Positions 880 through 50,937 of a stretch of DNA of 64,000 nt are shown here, one piece after another (the stretch's first letter is position 1; every line of letters begins with the position of its first letter). The position numbers were made by a program, and so were the translations under genes. The notes beneath the pieces are model-generated. The model ran no database searches. It worked only from the letters and a program-made list of their open reading frames with translations, and was not told the origin of the DNA. The DNA comes from Henriciella algicola (GTDB lineage Bacteria > Pseudomonadota > Alphaproteobacteria > Caulobacterales > Hyphomonadaceae): assembly GCF_003576245.1 (NCBI RefSeq), contig NZ_QWGA01000003.1, positions 868,001-932,000 on the forward strand. The letters run 5' to 3'.

Positions 880-3111
880 ATGGAACTCGAAACATTCAAA
901 TTCGACATTGACGGCGACGGTATTGCGCATGCCGCCTTCGACGTGCCGGGCCGCAGCATGAACACGCTGACCGGTCAGGCCGTTCAGGACATCATCGCAA
1001 TTGCCAAAGAGGTTGCCAGCAACGACAAGATCAAGGGCCTCGTCCTGTCGTCGGGCAAGCCTTCGGGCTTCTGCGCCGGTGCAGACCTTGGCGAGATGGG
1101 CAACCGTGCAGGCGCTGGCGACAGCTCCAGCAAAAGCGAAGACGAGAAGCTGAAAGAGCGCTTCAATCAGGGCTTCGCGCTGAACAAGACACTTCGTGAG
1201 CTTGAAACCTGCGGCAAGCCTGTTGCCTGCGCCCTGAATGGCCTCGCCCTCGGCGGCGGTCTCGAAGTGGCGCTGGCCTGTCACTACCGCGTTGCCGCCA
1301 ATGATAATCCGAAGCAGCAATTCGGCCTGCCGGAAGCCAAGATCGGCCTCCTGCCAGGTGCTGGTGGCACGCAGCGTCTGCCGCGCCTCGTCGGCGTTCA
1401 GGCTGCCCTGCCGCTGATCCTTCAGGGCGAAAGCTTTGACGCAGAAAAAGGCAAGGCGATGGGCGTCATCCAGGAGCTCGCACCCGGTGCAGAGGTCGTG
1501 GAGAAAGCCAAGGCCTGGGTGAAAGCGAACCCGACCGCCAAGGCGCCATGGGACGAAAAAGGCTTCAAGGTTCCAGGCGGCGTTCCGCATCGCAGCCCGG
1601 GCGCCGGTCAGGTCATGACGATGGCGAACGCCATGCTTCACGCCAAGACCTATGGCAACTTCCCGGCCCAGAAGAACATCCTGTCCTGTGTCTATGAAGG
1701 CATTCAGGTGCCGATCGATGCAGGCCTTCGGATCGAGACCCGCTACTTCATCAACACCCAGTCGCGCCCGGAAGCCAAGGCGATGATCCGCTCGCTCTTC
1801 CTGTCGACGCAGGCCCTGTCCAAGGGCGGCAACCGTCCGGAAGGCTACCCGAAGACCGAGTTCAAGAAGATCGCGGTGATCGGTGCAGGCCTGATGGGTG
1901 CAGGCGTTGCCTATGTTCAGGCGAAAGCCGGTATCCCGACCGTGCTCGTCGACGTGTCCAAGGAAAACGCCGAGAAGGGCAAGGATTACTCCCGCCGTCT
2001 CGTCGAGAAGGACGTCTCCCGCGGCAAGTCGACCAAGGAAAAGGGTGACAAGCTGCTCGACCTTATCACGACGACCGACAATTATGACGATGTGAAGGGC
2101 GCCGACCTGGTCATTGAGGCGGTCTTCGAGAACCAGGAACTGAAAGCGAAGATCACCGAGCAGGCCGAAGCTGTGCTGGGCGAAGATGCTGTGTTCGGCT
2201 CCAACACCTCCACTCTGCCGATCACGGGTCTCGCCAAGGCATCGAAGCGCCCTGAGAACTTCATCGGCATCCACTTCTTCTCCCCAGTGGAGCGGATGGG
2301 CCTGGTTGAGATCATCTCGGGCGAGGAGACGTCCGAAGCGACGCTGGCCAAGGCGGTCGATTACGTTCTTGCCATTCGCAAGACGCCAATCGCGGTCAAT
2401 GACAGCCGCGGCTTCTACACCTCGCGCTGTTTCGGCACCTATACGCGCGAAGGCATGGAAATGCTGGCCGAAGGTATCAAGCCTGCGATCATCGAGAATG
2501 TTGGCCGTCAGTCCGGTATGCCGATGGGCCCGTTGGAAGTGTCCGACTCTGTTGGCCTCGACACTGCCCTGAAAGTGACCCGCGCAACAGCAGAGGCAAT
2601 GGGCGTCGACATCCAGAAAGATGACCGCACCCAGTTCCTCGCCTGGCTCGTTGAAGACAGCGGCCGCGTTGGCCGTAAGGCTGGCAAGGGCTTCTACGAC
2701 TATAATGAGAAGGGCAAGCCAGAGCGCCTCTGGCCGGACCTCAACACCCGCATCGATGTGAAAGTCGATGAGTGCCCGCCAGAGCTGAAGAAGCACTACA
2801 TCAACCGCCTCCTGATCCGGCAGGCGATTGAGGTTGCCCGCTGCTTCGAAGAAGGCGTCATCACCGATGCTCGCGATGCTGACATCGGCTCCATCCTCGC
2901 CTGGGGCTTTGCGCCTTATACGGGCGGCTGCTGTTCCTATGTGGATCTCGTCTGGGGCATCAAAGCCTTTGTCGAGGAAGCCACGAAAATGGAAGAGAAG
3001 TATGGTGAGCGCTTCAAGGTGCCAGACCTTCTGAAAGACATGGCTGCCAAGGGTGAAGGCTTCTACGACCGCTTCCCACCGGGCGGCGTGAAGGCAAAAG
3101 TCGCCGCTTAA
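880..3111 (+). CDS. fadJ: bifunctional enoyl-CoA hydratase / 3-hydroxyacyl-CoA dehydrogenase (FadJ/FadB-type)
   Basis: A 743-residue cytoplasmic enzyme catalysing hydration of enoyl-CoA and NAD-dependent oxidation of 3-hydroxyacyl-CoA. The N-terminal crotonase domain (about 1-200) shows [16 protein letters not shown] and [18 protein letters not shown]. The NAD-binding domain starts near residue 330 with the Rossmann motif [10 protein letters not shown], has catalytic histidine in HFFSPVERM, and is followed by two C-terminal dehydrogenase helical regions. Length matches FadJ/FadB alpha subunits. A purine-rich ribosome site (AGAGGAAAG) precedes the ATG. With the upstream thiolase it completes the hydratase-dehydrogenase-thiolase set. 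An intrinsic terminator lies about 25 bases after the stop. Confidence 0.95.
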
Positions 3112-3135
3112 GCGGCGCGCCTGAATAATCTACAG

Positions 3136-3168
3136 AAAGCCGGGGCAGTTGCCCCGGCTTTTTCTTTT
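3136..3168 (+). terminator. intrinsic terminator of the beta-oxidation operon
   Basis: A perfect GC-rich stem (AAAGCCGGGGC / GCCCCGGCTTT) with loop AGTT, followed by T-rich TTTCTTTT. It lies 25 bases after the fadJ-type stop. Confidence 0.92.
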
Positions 3169-3286
3169 CGTGATTTCAGGAGCTTATTGGATTTTACCTA
3201 AGGTCGAGTTTTTCGTCCGTATTGTCCCCTATTTCCCTTTGTAGATGTTTGCGTTTATTAGAGAACACGTGTCGGGGGAATTCGGT

Positions 3287-3919
3287 ATGGCCAGACCTGC
3301 TGGTGTTAAAAATCAGGATTATAAAGAAAAGCGCCTGGCACTGTTGGACGCCATGATCGCCTATGTTGAGCGGGAAGACGTCGTACAGCCATCGCTCCGC
3401 CAACTCGCTATTGCCTCGGGTGTCTCAGACATCAATCTTCGTCACTATTTCGGCGATCGCCGCGGGGTAGTCATCGCACTTTTCAAGCACATGCGTGAAA
3501 CCAGCAAGGACGTGCGGAACGTCATGCGGGCGCCAGCCAGAACCGTAAGTGAAGCGATCGAGAGCTATGTCCAGCTCGCCTGCAGCGCGGGCACTGACAC
3601 GCCTTACATTCGGCGCCACGTCTTCGCTCTGCGCGAAGCAATTGCCGACTCTGAAGTCTATGTCCGCTATGTAGAAGAGATTCTGGATCCTGCAGCAGCA
3701 GCGGTCGGAAAGAGCCTTCTGGAGTCCTGTGATGGGGCGATGACAGAAGCTGCCGCTCATCAGGCCGGCACCCATATCGTCTTCAATTCTATGTTCCTGG
3801 CCATGCAAAGAGCGATGGACCCAGAAGATGTCGATTCAAAGATCTTTACGACCAAACTCGAAAGGTTCGGACGCTGGATCGCAGCAGGCCTCGAAGCTGA
3901 GGTCAGAAACGTCGCTTGA
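3287..3919 (+). CDS. TetR/AcrR family transcriptional regulator
   Basis: A 210-residue one-component regulator. The N-terminal helix-turn-helix covers about residues 15-60 (PSLRQLAIASGVSDINLRHYFGDR), followed by an all-helical ligand and dimer domain. The start is set at the second in-frame ATG because GGGGGA lies 7 bases upstream and the product then begins MARPAGVKNQD. The TetR at 31595-32233 begins almost identically (MARPAGVRNQD), so the two are paralogues. It lies between the beta-oxidation operon and the OmpA gene and is isolated by terminators on both sides. Its ligand is unknown; acyl-CoA-linked control is plausible only by position. Confidence 0.9.
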   Translation: MARPAGVKNQDYKEKRLALLDAMIAYVEREDVVQPSLRQLAIASGVSDINLRHYFGDRRGVVIALFKHMRETSKDVRNVMRAPARTVSEAIESYVQLACSAGTDTPYIRRHVFALREAIADSEVYVRYVEEILDPAAAAVGKSLLESCDGAMTEAAAHQAGTHIVFNSMFLAMQRAMDPEDVDSKIFTTKLERFGRWIAAGLEAEVRNVA

Positions 3920-3935
3920 GCGCTCCTCAATAAAA

Positions 3936-3965
3936 AAGGGCCGCAACATCTTTGTTGCGGCCCTT
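3936..3965. terminator. bidirectional terminator between tetR and ompA-like gene
   Basis: A 12-base-pair stem (AAGGGCCGCAAC / GTTGCGGCCCTT) with loop ATCTTT. An A-run lies on the left and T-rich sequence on the right, so it can serve both converging genes. Confidence 0.85.
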
Positions 3966-3987
3966 CTCTACGCTCTTGCCAGAGAGC

Positions 3988-4632
3988 CTAGCTGGTCGTG
4001 ACTGGCGTCAGCAGGACTTCAACGCGGCGGTTTGCTGCGCGGCCGGCCTGCGTGTCGTTGCTGGCGATTGGCTGGGTTTCACCGCGACCATAGGCCGAGA
4101 TACGGACAGCTTCGACGCCGCGGCTGACGAAGTAGTTCGCAACCGTGTTTGCACGCTGCTCGGACAGACGCATGTTGTAGTCGTCCGGGCCATCAGCACT
4201 GGCGTGACCGACAACATCAACGCGGGTCGATGGGTACTCCTGGAGCACGCCGGCGATCTCGTTCAGCGGGCCATAGGCGCTCGACTGAAGTTCTGCGCTG
4301 TTGACGGTGAAGTTCACGCTGGAGTTCGATGGCATGGTGAGTGCGATCTGGTCGCCCTGACGCTCAACCTGGATTTGGGAGTTCGCCGTGCGCTCACGAA
4401 GGGCGCGTTCCTGGCGGTCCATATAGGTACCGACTGCGCCGCCAGCGAGGGCGCCAACTGCTGCGCCGATAGCTGCGTTGCGGCCGTCATCACCGCCAGC
4501 CAGCGTACCGAGGGCTGCACCTGCGAGTGCGCCGCCACCAGCGCCGTAGGCCTGATTGGTGGAAAGGCCTGTGCCTTCACATGCGGTGAGAACGAATGCT
4601 GCTGCGGCTGCGCCGATCATGATCTTGTTCAT
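3988..4632 (-). CDS. OmpA-family lipoprotein with glycine zipper
   Basis: A 214-residue outer-membrane lipoprotein that tethers the envelope to peptidoglycan. The start at 4632 gives signal peptide MNKIMIGAAAAAFVLTAC with a lipobox cysteine; TGAGGAG lies just upstream, and longer frames would bury this signal. Residues about 30-75 form a glycine-zipper segment (GGGALAGAALGTLAGG, GAAVGALAGGAVGTYMD). The C-terminal OmpA peptidoglycan-binding domain (about 100-214) has VDVVGHASADG, RLSEQRANTV and the conserved NRRVEV. It resembles the YiaD/Pal-like group. It is monocistronic and shares a terminator with the facing tetR. Confidence 0.92.
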   Translation of the reverse strand: MNKIMIGAAAAAFVLTACEGTGLSTNQAYGAGGGALAGAALGTLAGGDDGRNAAIGAAVGALAGGAVGTYMDRQERALRERTANSQIQVERQGDQIALTMPSNSSVNFTVNSAELQSSAYGPLNEIAGVLQEYPSTRVDVVGHASADGPDDYNMRLSEQRANTVANYFVSRGVEAVRISAYGRGETQPIASNDTQAGRAANRRVEVLLTPVTTS

Positions 4633-23544: not shown

Positions 23545-23654
23545 ATGCCTTGGTTCCGGCTTCAGCCAATCTCCTCCGATTGTGCGTTTCCTCCCTCCAA
23601 GTAGGAACCAATACTTAGAGCCCGGCGCGATCACTCGCAGCCGGGCTTTTTTTC
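23545..23654 (+). ncRNA. candidate trans-acting sRNA with anti-Shine-Dalgarno loops
   Basis: The gap between the LysR gene and dps can fold into a defined RNA. An 8-bp stem TTGGTTCC (23550-23557) with GGAACCAA (23604-23611) encloses a hairpin CAATC-TCCTCC-GATTG (23567-23582) whose whole loop is an anti-SD hexamer. A second C-rich run, TTTCCTCCCTCC (23587-23598), stays unpaired. An intrinsic terminator follows. This is the architecture of CCUCC-loop sRNAs known in alphaproteobacteria (for example alpha-r15 or CcsR types, and the C-rich loop of GsrN). The 5' end and promoter are not resolved. It shares GCGTTTCCTCCCT with the candidate at 36454-36540. Confidence 0.55.
23619..23654 (+). terminator. 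intrinsic terminator of candidate sRNA
   Basis: Stem AGCCCGGC (23619-23626) with GCCGGGCT (23640-23647), a 13-base loop, then a run of seven T. It works on the + strand only; the minus-strand side has no T-run. Confidence 0.85.
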
Positions 23655-23673
23655 TGTTTCGATGTTAAGAAAT

Positions 23674-34942: not shown

Positions 34943-35017
34943 TGGTGGGCGGTACAAGGATCGAACTTGTGACCCCTACAATGTCAATGTAGTGCTCTAC
35001 CGCTGAGCTAACCGCCC
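34943..35017 (-). tRNA. tRNA-Val (anticodon GAC)
   Basis: A complete 75-base cloverleaf including the encoded CCA. Acceptor GGGCGGT pairs with ACCGCCC, the D arm is GCTCAGCGGTAGAGC, the anticodon stem CTACA/TGTAG holds loop TTGACAT (anticodon GAC), and the T arm contains the usual GTTCGATCC. Confidence 0.97.
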
Positions 35018-35564: not shown

Positions 35565-36455
35565 ATGACAGTCACGGCGACAGAAGAGCAGAGCCCCGTG
35601 CCGGGGAGCGGACTACGGTTGCCGGCGTTTACGCTGGACGTGCCGCAGTCCGATGAGCGCCCGCTAATCTTTGCGTCGCCCCATAGTGGCCGGGAATATC
35701 CAGACTATTTCCGCAGTGCGCTGCGCGTGCCGCTACTGGACCTGAAGCGGACAGAAGACGCGTTTGTCGATGAGCTGTTCGCGAACGCGCCTCTTTATGG
35801 TGCACGGCTGCTGAAAGCGACTTATGCGCGCTCCTTTGTCGATCTCAACCGCGACCCCCGTGAGATTGACGCCTCCATGTTTCATGGTGACCCGCCAGGC
35901 CCTGTCGCTGTGCCGACAGTCCGGGTCGAAGCGGGACTGGGCTGCTTTCCACGCATCGGTGCGCGCGGTGAGTTTATTTATGCAAAAAAGCTGGACCCAG
36001 CTGACGGACGCGCTCGCCTCGACTTCGTTCATACACCGTATCACGCCGCATTATCGGGCGAGATTGCTGCACTGCGTCAGAAGTATGGATGCGCCATCCT
36101 GATCGACTGCCACTCCATGCCGTCGACCCAGCCCGGCCGTCCAGACTTGCCGGATTTCGTGCTTGGTGACCGCTTTGGGTCGAGCTGCACAGGCCAGCTG
36201 ACCGGTCTTGTGGAGCGAACATTACGTAAGGCAGGATTCAGCGTTGTGAGGAATGCGCCATATGCTGGCGGCTTTACCACGCGGAAGTATGGCCGGCCGA
36301 AACAGCACGTCCACGCCTTGCAAATAGAGATAAACCGGCGGCTTTATCTTGATGAAGCCCAGGTCACAGCGATTGACGCGATGGCCGCACTGTCGCATCA
36401 GCTAGATGGGCTGATGGAAAATATCTCTGAATTGAGCGAGCGCTTGCGCCCATAA
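35565..36455 (+). CDS. N-formylglutamate amidohydrolase family protein
   Basis: A 296-residue hydrolase releasing formate from N-formyl-glutamate, or acting on related N-acyl substrates. Recognisable blocks are IFASPHSGREYPDYF, SFVDLNRDPREID, CAILIDCHSMPS and the C-terminal LQIEINRRLYLDE, with the metal-binding His and Asp residues of the family. No hut operon surrounds it, so a histidine-degradation role is not supported; the pairing with cpdR is a conserved alphaproteobacterial neighbourhood. Confidence 0.9.
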   Translation: MTVTATEEQSPVPGSGLRLPAFTLDVPQSDERPLIFASPHSGREYPDYFRSALRVPLLDLKRTEDAFVDELFANAPLYGARLLKATYARSFVDLNRDPREIDASMFHGDPPGPVAVPTVRVEAGLGCFPRIGARGEFIYAKKLDPADGRARLDFVHTPYHAALSGEIAALRQKYGCAILIDCHSMPSTQPGRPDLPDFVLGDRFGSSCTGQLTGLVERTLRKAGFSVVRNAPYAGGFTTRKYGRPKQHVHALQIEINRRLYLDEAQVTAIDAMAALSHQLDGLMENISELSERLRP

Positions 36456-36540
36456 AAAAAGGGCCGCGCCAAGGCTGGCGCGGCCGAATAAGGTAAAGGG
36501 AGGAAACGCCAGAAGGCGTTAGCACCGCAGTGCTGAGACC
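36454..36540 (-). ncRNA. candidate trans-acting sRNA with anti-Shine-Dalgarno segment
   Basis: Read on the minus strand, the gap holds hairpin AGCAC-TGCG-GTGCT (36521-36534), hairpin AACGCC-TTCT-GGCGTT (36505-36520), an unpaired TCCTCCC (36498-36504), and an intrinsic terminator: 10-bp stem GGCCGCGCCA/TGGCGCGGCC (36462-36485) followed by seven T (36454-36460). There is no minus-strand gene nearby for this terminator to serve. The exact 13-mer GCGTTTCCTCCCT also occurs in the candidate at 23545-23654. A weak promoter (TTGGTC, 17 bases, CACAAT) lies upstream. The 5' end is uncertain. Confidence 0.6.
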
Positions 36541-36704
36541 AACTTATTGTGCGGCGCACAAAATGCAAGACCAAAAAACTGCATCGATGCGTTTTTGCAT
36601 GAAATCAGACTGAGACAACCGGACGGCATGAAGTTTGCTCTCCATCTCTGCGACGCTCAAACCGGGACGATCCCGGGCTTAAGGATGATCAAGGGGAGCC
36701 GGGC

Positions 36705-37097
36705 ATGACTGACAATACCGACCTTCACGTAGGAAAGAGACTACGCCGCCGCCGCAGGCTGCTCGGCCTGACCCAGCAGGAGCTGGCATCCCAGGTAGGG
36801 GTCCGCTTCCAGCAGATCCAGAAATATGAGTGCGGCGCCAACCGCATGACCTCTTCGCGGCTCTTCGATCTCTCGAAAGCGCTGAACGTATCAGTCCAGT
36901 ACTTCTTCGACGGCATTGAGCAGGATGACCTTCTTGCCGCGAATGACGCCGACACGATGGACGGCGACATCCTGAGCCAGAAAGAGACCCTCGAACTGGT
37001 GCGGGCATACTACCGCCTGGGTGAACGCCCACGCCGCCGCCTGCTCGAGCTCGCCAAAGCCCTGGAATCCGACCAGAGCGGCACAGGCGCAGCTTGA
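36705..37097 (+). CDS. XRE family regulator, PraR-like
   Basis: A 130-residue repressor. After a short leader the helix-turn-helix follows (HVGKRLRRRRRLLGLTQQEL, FQQIQKYECGANRMTSSRL), then a helical tail. FQQIQKYE with GANR and the basic start are typical of the alphaproteobacterial PraR/PhrR branch. A GGGGAGCCGG element precedes the ATG. It is monocistronic or leads into hisN, 32 bases downstream. Confidence 0.92.
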   Translation: MTDNTDLHVGKRLRRRRRLLGLTQQELASQVGVRFQQIQKYECGANRMTSSRLFDLSKALNVSVQYFFDGIEQDDLLAANDADTMDGDILSQKETLELVRAYYRLGERPRRRLLELAKALESDQSGTGAA

Positions 37098-37129
37098 CCT
37101 TCCTGTCTCGCGCGCCATAAGCGCGAGAC

Positions 37130-37939
37130 ATGACCCTCCCTGCATCGCAGTCTGACCTTGTAGACCTCGCCTGCCGGCTCGCTGACGTGGCCTGGCAGGC
37201 GATTTCGCCTCATTTTCGCGCCGGCATTGATGCCGAGAACAAGGCAGGCGGCGCCGCTTACGACCCCGTCACAGTTGCAGATCGGGCCGGCGAAGAAGCC
37301 ATCCGGGCCATTCTGTCAGTCGAACGCCCGGATGACAGCATCGACGGCGAGGAGTTTGGCAGGCATGAAGGCAGCTCCGGCTGGACCTGGCTGCTCGATC
37401 CGATCGACGGCACGCGTGCATTTCTCGCAGGCCTGCCCGTCTGGACGACGCTGATCGCGCTGGCGGACCCGGACGGAAACCCTGTCATTGGCATCATTGA
37501 TCAGCCCGTCCTCGGAGAGCGATATATCGGCGCACCGGGCGAGGCCTGGCTAGAGACGCCAAAAGGCCGCACGGCGCTGCGCGTGTCTTCCTGCAATGAC
37601 CTGCGACAGGCAATCATCGCCACAACCGATCCGTTCATCATGAACCCGGCCGAACAGGGGGCATGGACGCATATCCGGCACACGGCACGCATCTGCCGCT
37701 ATGGCCTTGATGCCTATGCCTATGGACGTCTTGCCGCTGGCAGCATCGACCTGGTGTGTGAAACAGGCCTGCAGCCACATGATGTCGCAGCGCTGATCCC
37801 GGTTGTGCGGGGCGCAGGCGGCATTGCGAGAGACTGGCGGGGGCGCGAAGCCAAACAGGGCCCCCAGATCGTCTGCGCGTCCTCGGAAGCCGTCTTCGAG
37901 CAGGCTTTCATCTCCCTGCGCCGGTCTGCTGGCGATTAA
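37130..37939 (+). CDS. hisN: histidinol-phosphatase, inositol-monophosphatase type
   Basis: A 269-residue metal-dependent phosphatase. The metal-site motifs are DGEEFG, LLDPIDGTRAF and the C-terminal PHDVAALIPVVRGAGG. FLAGLPVWTTLIAL and the overall length place it with HisN-type histidinol-phosphatases of alphaproteobacteria rather than SuhB. No other histidine gene is adjacent, as is usual for hisN. The start gives MTLPASQSDLVDLA. Confidence 0.88.
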   Translation: MTLPASQSDLVDLACRLADVAWQAISPHFRAGIDAENKAGGAAYDPVTVADRAGEEAIRAILSVERPDDSIDGEEFGRHEGSSGWTWLLDPIDGTRAFLAGLPVWTTLIALADPDGNPVIGIIDQPVLGERYIGAPGEAWLETPKGRTALRVSSCNDLRQAIIATTDPFIMNPAEQGAWTHIRHTARICRYGLDAYAYGRLAAGSIDLVCETGLQPHDVAALIPVVRGAGGIARDWRGREAKQGPQIVCASSEAVFEQAFISLRRSAGD

Positions 37940-49523: not shown

Positions 49524-50855
49524 ATGGCTGATACAGCAACGAAGATCGCCCACAATCTTGAGCGGCCAAAGACGACCGCACGCGAAAAGCTGATGGAATT
49601 CCATCTCGACCGCGGTGCGCCAATCCCGTCGCCGGAAGACGTCGACATGAAGACGTTTGACATCCTGGATCCGGAGCTCTGGCGCCGCGACGCCCATTGG
49701 GATTTCTTCAAATGGATGCGCGACAATGATCCGGTCCACTACACACCGGACAGCTTTGCCGGCCCTTACTGGTCCGTGACGCTCTATGACGACGTCCGCG
49801 ACGTCGATATCGACCACAAGCGCTTCTCATCGTCCTGGGAATATGGCGGCATCACGCTCGGTGAGCCGTTCGAAGACTTCGAACTGCCAATGTTCATCGC
49901 CATGGATGAGCCCCGCCACTCTGAGCAGCGCAAGACCGTCCAGCCGGCGGTTGCACCAAACATGCTCAAGGAATTCGAGCCGCTGATCCGCTCGCGGACC
50001 CAAGGCCTGCTCGACTCCCTGCCGGTCAATGAGCCATTCGACTGGGTCGACACGGTTTCGATCGAGCTCACCACCATGATGCTCGCGACCCTGTTCGACT
50101 TCCCGTTCGAAGATCGCCGCAAGCTGACCCATTGGTCGGACGTCGCGACCAACCCGCACAATCCGGACATCTGCCCGGGTGGCCTCGACCAGTGGAAGCA
50201 GGAACTCATGGAGTGCCTGACCACATTCATGGGCATTTATCAGGACCGCCAGTCCAAGCCGGTCAAGAATGACCTGATGAGCCTTCTCGCCCACGGCGAA
50301 AAGACCAAGAACATGACCCCGATGGAGCTTCTCGGGAACGTGATCCTGCTTATCGTTGGCGGCAATGACACGACGCGCAACTCCATGACGGCGTCGGTCC
50401 ATGCCCTCAACAAGTGGCCGGATCAGTTCGAAAAGCTGAAAGCCGATCCATCTCTGATCCCGAATATGGTGTCAGAAGTCATCCGCTGGCAGACGCCGCT
50501 CGCCTATATGCGTCGCACCGCGCTCGAGGACGTCGAAATTCGCGGCAAGACCATCAAGAAAGGCGAACAGGTCGCCATGTGGTATGTGTCAGCCAACCGC
50601 GACGAGCGGTTCTGGGACGAAGATCCATATCGCCTCCACATCGACCGCAAGCAGGCCCGCAACCACATCGCGTTCGGTTTCGGCATCCACCGCTGCGTCG
50701 GCAACCGCCTGGCTGAACTTCAGCTCCGCATCCTTTGGGAAGAGCTGCTGGAACGCTTCGACCATATCGAAGTGCTGGAAGAGCCAGAGCGCAACGCACA
50801 TTCCTTCGTGAAGGGCTACACCTGGATGCCGGTCATCCTGCACCCGAAGAAGTAG
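49524..50855 (+). CDS. cytochrome P450, CYP153-like
   Basis: A 443-residue class I bacterial P450. The I-helix oxygen motif is LIVGGNDTTRNSM, ExxR occurs in EVIRW, and the haem cysteine lies in FGFGIHRCVGNRLAELQLRI. The I-helix and haem-loop wording are close to CYP153 terminal alkane or fatty-acid hydroxylases, so that assignment is probable but from memory. AGGAGG lies 8 bases before the ATG. No ferredoxin or reductase gene is adjacent. A strong terminator follows. Confidence 0.9.
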   Translation: MADTATKIAHNLERPKTTAREKLMEFHLDRGAPIPSPEDVDMKTFDILDPELWRRDAHWDFFKWMRDNDPVHYTPDSFAGPYWSVTLYDDVRDVDIDHKRFSSSWEYGGITLGEPFEDFELPMFIAMDEPRHSEQRKTVQPAVAPNMLKEFEPLIRSRTQGLLDSLPVNEPFDWVDTVSIELTTMMLATLFDFPFEDRRKLTHWSDVATNPHNPDICPGGLDQWKQELMECLTTFMGIYQDRQSKPVKNDLMSLLAHGEKTKNMTPMELLGNVILLIVGGNDTTRNSMTASVHALNKWPDQFEKLKADPSLIPNMVSEVIRWQTPLAYMRRTALEDVEIRGKTIKKGEQVAMWYVSANRDERFWDEDPYRLHIDRKQARNHIAFGFGIHRCVGNRLAELQLRILWEELLERFDHIEVLEEPERNAHSFVKGYTWMPVILHPKK

Positions 50856-50880
50856 ACTTAATACCCTCCCAGAAACTTGA

Positions 50881-50918
50881 AGCCCCGCGGCCTGTCAGGC
50901 TTGCGGGGCTTTTTTTTC
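50881..50918 (+). terminator. intrinsic terminator after P450 gene
   Basis: AGCCCCGC (50881-50888) pairs with GCGGGGCT (50903-50910), followed by eight T. It also separates the P450 from the convergent SDR gene. Confidence 0.92.
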
Positions 50919-50937
50919 GGCGCATATCGCGGTGCGA

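Follow-up and report, generated by a model that had tools for sequence, protein, structure and literature searches.

A predicted alpha-r8 (MmgR/SisA-type) small RNA opposite the N-formylglutamate amidohydrolase gene of Henriciella algicola, with a probable PhaR operator and two sibling candidates

Within the 64,000-nucleotide stretch of the Henriciella algicola genome analyzed here (the window; contig NZ_QWGA01000003.1, positions 868,001 to 932,000), a strong terminator hairpin followed by seven T is found on the minus strand near 36.5 kb, and the question raised by this locus is what such a terminator is for. A sequence-only reading of the window had held that no minus-strand gene is there for it to serve and had proposed a small RNA (sRNA) with an exposed anti-Shine-Dalgarno (anti-SD) tract, one member of a multi-copy family with a second copy at 23.6 kb. 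The first of these statements holds: the Pfam-matched frames on both sides, that of N-formylglutamate amidohydrolase (FGase, 35565–36455; PF05013, E 1.5e-71) and that of an HTH gene (36705–37097), both lie on the plus strand, the latter being overlapped by a mechanical minus-strand ORF at 36679–37131.

Scanning the whole window against Rfam returned two matches above cut-off, a tRNA at 34946–35017 and RF00519 (suhB) at 36447–36524 on the minus strand, the latter covering model positions 1–77 of 77 with 47.4 bits against a gathering score of 41. RF00519 corresponds to the alpha-r8 sRNAs, which according to PMC12559287 are missing among the Alphaproteobacteria only from Rickettsiales, sit in most species as a single copy beside an FGase gene, and consist of a weak hairpin, then the 10-mer UUUCCUCCCU, then a terminator. 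The same anatomy is found here. A weak hairpin, AACGCC-UUCU-GGCGUU (36520–36505, minus strand), seen both in the fold and in the RF00519 match, adjoins the family seed UUUCCUCCCU at 36506–36497, an anti-SD 10-mer as defined in the same source and recovered in our alignment A1 (see below), the first two U of which are paired within the weak hairpin in the window copy. A Rho-independent terminator (36485–36454, minus strand; 10-bp hairpin at 36485–36462 and seven T at 36460–36454) lies 3′ of this core, and the FGase gene is the convergent neighbor that marks the main alpha-r8 locus. RF02344 (alpha-r14) gave no match in 36300–36720 at E ≤ 1. Based on these comparisons we assign the 36.5-kb feature, with high confidence, as the predicted Hyphomonadaceae copy of the known alphaproteobacterial sRNA of the MmgR/SisA type.

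The predicted transcript, RNA A, comprises about 84 nt (36455–36538, minus strand), its 5′ end being placed from the promoter. Folding of 36538–36455 gives −39 kcal/mol, with a z score of −5.9 that none of 200 shuffles attains, and reproduces what had been read from the letters, that is, two hairpins at 36534–36521 and 36520–36505, an unpaired UCCUCCC, and the terminator with its seven T; the letters of the 5′ hairpin, AGCACUGCGGUGCU (36534–36521), are identical in the nearest aligned relatives. With the longer stretch 36545–36447 the z score is −3.6, and the CCC of the seed pairs 3′ of the terminator. The terminator overlaps the FGase stop codon. The seven T are confined to the minus strand; read on the plus strand, the hairpin lacks a T-run, and the FGase mRNA (35565–36485, plus strand) may therefore run on antisense to the sRNA.

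Conservation was assessed with RF00519 in 61 genomes (our own and 60 relatives) and in 14 control genomes. Matches at E ≤ 1e-3 were obtained in 54 of the 61, with 47 above the cut-off and 7 genomes having none at this threshold, and in two controls, Caulobacter vibrioides and the distant Thermus composti, of which one exceeds the cut-off while that of Thermus composti stays below it. The 30 best matches, at most one per genome, were retrieved with 1.5-kb flanks, and an FGase gene is present in the flanks of 28; the other two, from order-level relatives (L015 and L024), score above the cut-off in flanks devoid of FGase and are perhaps siblings at other sites. In alignment A1, 98.3% of lettered cells are paired and two-sided change is seen in 8 of 13 pairs, neither value being attained in 500 shuffles. 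The terminator stem contributes two-sided changes in 7 of its 9 pairs, and the seed is present in all 31 sequences and invariant at every base except the last. The upstream hairpin shows a single two-sided change, the rows of the nearest relatives being gapped there, and RNAalifold did not predict it and proposed a different small pairing at this place. A covariance model, R1, was built from 31 RF00519 sequences including that of the window, which itself scores 68 bits as one of the 31. FGase protein searching gave 80 loci from named genomes, out of 106 genomes encoding a relative, the closest being from Henriciella (92, 90, and 89% identity). For 62 of them R1 places the sRNA 3′ of FGase on the opposite strand, with E ≤ 5e-8 in 61 and 5e-4 in the remaining one, and 18 have no match; the distance to FGase is mostly short and reaches several hundred bases in a few (L069, L095, L117).

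Upstream of RNA A, the window and 19 relatives, when aligned, show a conserved block, CTTG...TGC-N3-GCA...TA, within which we place the promoter (36569–36544, minus strand) with presumed −35 box CTTGCA at 36569–36564 and −10 region CACAATAA at 36551–36544. Together with the RF00519 score above gathering, the covariation, and the synteny, this block bears out at the level of sequence comparison the minus-strand anti-SD sRNA that had been proposed. Between the presumed boxes stands the palindrome TTGTGC-GCC-GCACAA (36547–36561). For Sinorhizobium meliloti mmgR, a dyad between the promoter boxes is reported, with induction by NtrC, repression by AniA (PhaR), and limitation of PHB by MmgR (PMC7143759 and PMC8401924), and PMC12542648 reports gel shifts of PhaR with the mmgR promoter and a core motif YGCRNYGCR. 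The exact palindrome TTGTGC-N3-GCACAA occurs at two places in the H. algicola genome, the sRNA promoter and C5:93592–93606 (L179:1501–1515), 5′ of a phasin ORF (Phasin_2, PF09361), and since the sole other exact copy precedes a phasin gene, 36547–36561 probably corresponds to the PhaR operator known from mmgR. The genome contains a PhaR gene (PF07879, C5:791514–791696) beside a reductase gene, here taken for phaB by its sequence, and both hallmarks of mmgR-type control, the YGC-N3-GCR promoter palindrome and a gene for PhaR, are thus present. The looser dyad pattern TTGTGCNNNGCRNMA is hardly enriched over its reversed control (15 matches at 13 places versus 9), and a degenerate copy lies 5′ of a 3-hydroxyacyl-CoA dehydrogenase gene. 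We then considered 93 alpha-r8 loci, namely the window, the 30 RF00519 loci, and the 62 FGase loci, a set in which at least two contigs appear twice and the relatives are not independent. The 100 nt upstream contain TGC-N3-GCA in 64 of the 93 versus 2.2% in mononucleotide shuffles, and the looser YGC-N3-GCR in 78 versus 9.0%. Of the 93, 29 have no dyad or a degenerate one, and not all of the 64 have it inside the presumed box interval. A PhaR-type palindrome, bound by PhaR upstream of mmgR in S. meliloti (PMC12542648), thus also precedes many alpha-r8 genes of this sample.

The 13-base core GCGTTTCCTCCCT, which had been put forward as the mark of the family, was indeed found at 36497–36509 (minus strand) and 23584–23596 (plus strand). 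In the 3.2-Mb genome it has three exact places, versus none for the reversed control, being RNA A, the element at 23584 (element B), and C5:1272063. The last falls inside a long coding frame and was rejected as an sRNA copy, so that the bare 13-mer is no safe sRNA marker; scatter in coding sequence, named beforehand as what would speak against the proposal, thus applies to one of three copies. The best sibling of RNA A (element C, below) has 12 of the 13 bases. Up to two mismatches being allowed, the window contains 5 copies against 1.88 expected, an excess reached by 3 of 100 shuffles, and therefore only the exact copies say much. RF00519 has 47 matches at E ≤ 10 in the own genome; six weak ones were inspected (L006–L011), none contains the exact 13-mer, and judged by eye they look like gene-end terminators.

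Element B (23546–23656, plus strand) has an outer stem GGUUCC/GGAACC, a hairpin with a CCUCC loop, an unpaired CGUUUCCUCCC, and a terminator. It scores 18.3 bits with RF00519 (gathering score 41) and, over 23557–23653, 19.7 bits with RF02344 (cut-off 58.8), and of 18 B loci run against Rfam, out of 21 in all, none attains any gathering score. R1 gives 14.8–25.7 bits over these 21 loci and 16.1 bits in the window, where three other weak matches score higher (19.9, 18.0, and 17.1 bits). At least two B loci are among the weak RF00519 matches of the genome survey (30.1 and 29.1 bits). The RF00519 and R1 scores do not support B as an ordinary RF00519 member. By BLAST, B is found in 21 of the 25 genomes from the genus and in none of the 16 at order level, and by a model of its own, R2, in 76 of 101 family genomes and 5 of 10 genera, G006 being the sole genome without B by R2 among the genus genomes searched by BLAST. 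In the B alignment, from which a 33-nt second match in one genome (L143, in G021) was excluded, 100% of outer-stem cells are paired with three compensated pairs. Taken over the entire structure, pairing amounts to 92.3% of cells and two-sided change is seen in 6 of 12 pairs, values that none of 500 shuffles matches; further pair types, in contrast, are no more numerous than in shuffles (384/500). A LysR gene adjoins B in all of 41 loci (20 chosen from the R2 search and 21 from the BLAST search), and Dps does so in 26, within short flanks. The motif GGGCGUUUCCUCCC is common to B and alpha-r8 in many relatives, so that the two may share a common descent. These sequence data make B a separate conserved sRNA candidate with two anti-SD tracts and possibly, though not necessarily, a diverged alpha-r8 sibling.

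The second-best RF00519 match in the genome, element C (C5:1233733–1233808, plus strand; L005:1501–1576), scores 34.8 bits, and 37.2 bits with R1, and starts 6 nt 3′ of the stop codon of amtB (ammonium transporter, PF00909). Its anatomy fits alpha-r8, and its RF00519 score remains below the gathering score of 41 both here and in relatives (40.3 at best). Among 30 amtB loci fetched, the core TTTCCTCC follows amtB in 21 of 23 from the same genus and in 0 of 7 belonging to other families within the order. R1 detects the same 21 at 25–39 bits and a further one of the 23 weakly (18.0 bits), with again 0 of 7 from other families. L157 and L162, which lack the core, were excluded from the C alignment. 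One simple pattern for a sigma-54-type site found none near amtB in the 7 loci scanned. The dyad TGC-N3-GCA is absent from the 100-nt windows before C (0/21) and before B (0/21). Element C is likely the second alpha-r8 copy of this genome, judged by its sequence, and it is possibly a 3′-UTR-derived sRNA coupled to ammonium transport. The multi-copy family proposed from the window alone stands in outline, but it is the known family alpha-r8, and the copy at 23584, with its 18.3 bits, is a different element. Among the open-access matches listed, no title concerned B or C; the alpha-r8 phylogeny of Lagares et al. (2016) may cover them.

Candidate targets were sought through the exact seed complement AGGGAGGAAA, which occurs 8 times in the genome versus 2 for the reversed control. 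Three of these occurrences lie opposite the three 13-mers. Three of the remaining five lie at ribosome-binding positions just 5′ of ORF starts, those of a TonB-receptor plug protein (PF07715; leader at C8:213853), a NUDIX-like protein (by eye), and one unnamed protein, and the other two are antisense within frames. The seed is anti-SD by nature, so matches at ribosome-binding sites (RBSs) are expected and RBS complementarity is weak evidence. Prediction against ribosome sites, as had been suggested, gave a mixed outcome: two of the three candidates pair at −24.1 and −25.8 kcal/mol, stronger than each of the 52 mechanically called window ORFs taken for comparison, while the TonB receptor duplex (−18.2 kcal/mol) ranks behind 6 of them. 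Phasin is not supported as a direct target of RNA A, its pairing amounting to only −9.2 kcal/mol. No sponge with the exact 10-mer was recognized among the 8 genome complements.

Could the hairpin and T-run be a mere terminator of stray minus-strand transcription, without any sRNA? It abuts the FGase stop codon, and other window sites, at 3096–3174 (+), 3904–3977 (+), 3924–3994 (−), and 50845–50925 (+), score 15.8–19.9 bits with R1 and are not called sRNAs. The T-run is confined to the minus strand, however, and 47.4 bits exceeds the RF00519 cut-off; we reject this reading, which we hold to be very improbable, because the promoter block and the seed, and the hairpins with them, are conserved besides the terminator. 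Much the same little credence is due to a new two-copy anti-SD family at 36.5 and 23.6 kb, unrelated to known families, in spite of the exact 13-mer common to both elements and of the covarying stems in both, as the 36.5-kb copy is placed in alpha-r8 by its RF00519 match above cut-off and its synteny, and the 23.6-kb copy differs in fold and neighbors.

Alternatively, the RNA might act mainly in cis on FGase, through convergent transcription or antisense pairing. It does overlap the stop codon and is antisense to the FGase 3′ end, the convergent arrangement recurs in 62 of 80 FGase loci, and FGase may lack a terminator of its own there, the plus strand being without T-run. Yet the invariant part is the seed, FGase is missing beside the amtB copy and in two of 30 RF00519 loci, and SisA works in trans on many mRNAs (PMC12559287), and we thus consider action in cis unlikely. 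The reading we prefer, to which as a whole we assign a probability of about 0.88, is that RNA A is the main alpha-r8 sRNA, the predicted orthologue of SisA and MmgR, blocking RBSs with the aid of Hfq and controlled by PhaR.

For the mechanism of RNA A our confidence is moderate. By analogy with its relatives, the RNA would work with Hfq, the gene of which is present in the genome, and its seed would pair with the Shine-Dalgarno regions of a set of mRNAs such that ribosome entry is blocked. The TonB-dependent receptor, the RBS of which is complementary to all 10 bases of the seed, is a candidate target and matches in class one proven for SisA, which in Caulobacter crescentus represses a TonB receptor by direct pairing of the 10-mer, as tested in E. 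coli making Caulobacter Hfq. SisA also has in common with RNA A the family anatomy, the 10-mer, and the site downstream of FGase; Caulobacter, in contrast, possesses four siblings, SisA–D, with CrfA as their sponge (all from PMC12559287), where we find one likely (amtB) and one doubtful sibling. As to regulation, the operator suggests that PhaR would repress the sRNA gene when PHB granules are absent, and that granules would titrate PhaR and thereby derepress sRNA and phasin together, a joint response through which carbon surplus would be linked to the repression of uptake proteins. MmgR of S. meliloti resembles RNA A as an alpha-r8 sRNA with a PhaR (AniA) palindrome between the promoter boxes, PhaR and phasin genes being present in Henriciella too, and differs in being a single copy there; phasin, moreover, is not a predicted direct target in Henriciella.

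With RNA A settled as a known, conserved sRNA in another species, interest lies mostly in the siblings. Tentatively, and with the odds rather against it, we propose that in Hyphomonadaceae three differently wired seed RNAs converge on one set of RBSs and so sum carbon, nitrogen, and stress: RNA A through its PhaR operator (carbon surplus), C through the 3′ end of the amtB mRNA (nitrogen limitation), possibly as a processed 3′-UTR sRNA, and B, a diverged, uncatalogued sibling next to a LysR gene and frequently Dps, its two anti-SD tracts enclosed by an outer stem that covaries. The elements linked to amtB and to LysR/Dps offer a way to ask why alphaproteobacteria keep several one-seed RNAs, each of which may answer a different nutrient signal. 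Two further alphaproteobacterial sRNAs share single traits with these elements. GsrN of Caulobacter has a C-rich exposed loop and, outside C. crescentus, is mostly located near ecfG/nepR/phyR, unlike the RNAs discussed here (PMC5869019). Alpha-r14/NfeR1 (RF02344), from which both the 36.5-kb RNA and the 23.6-kb element are set apart by score, likewise bears CCUCC-rich anti-SD tracts before its terminator.
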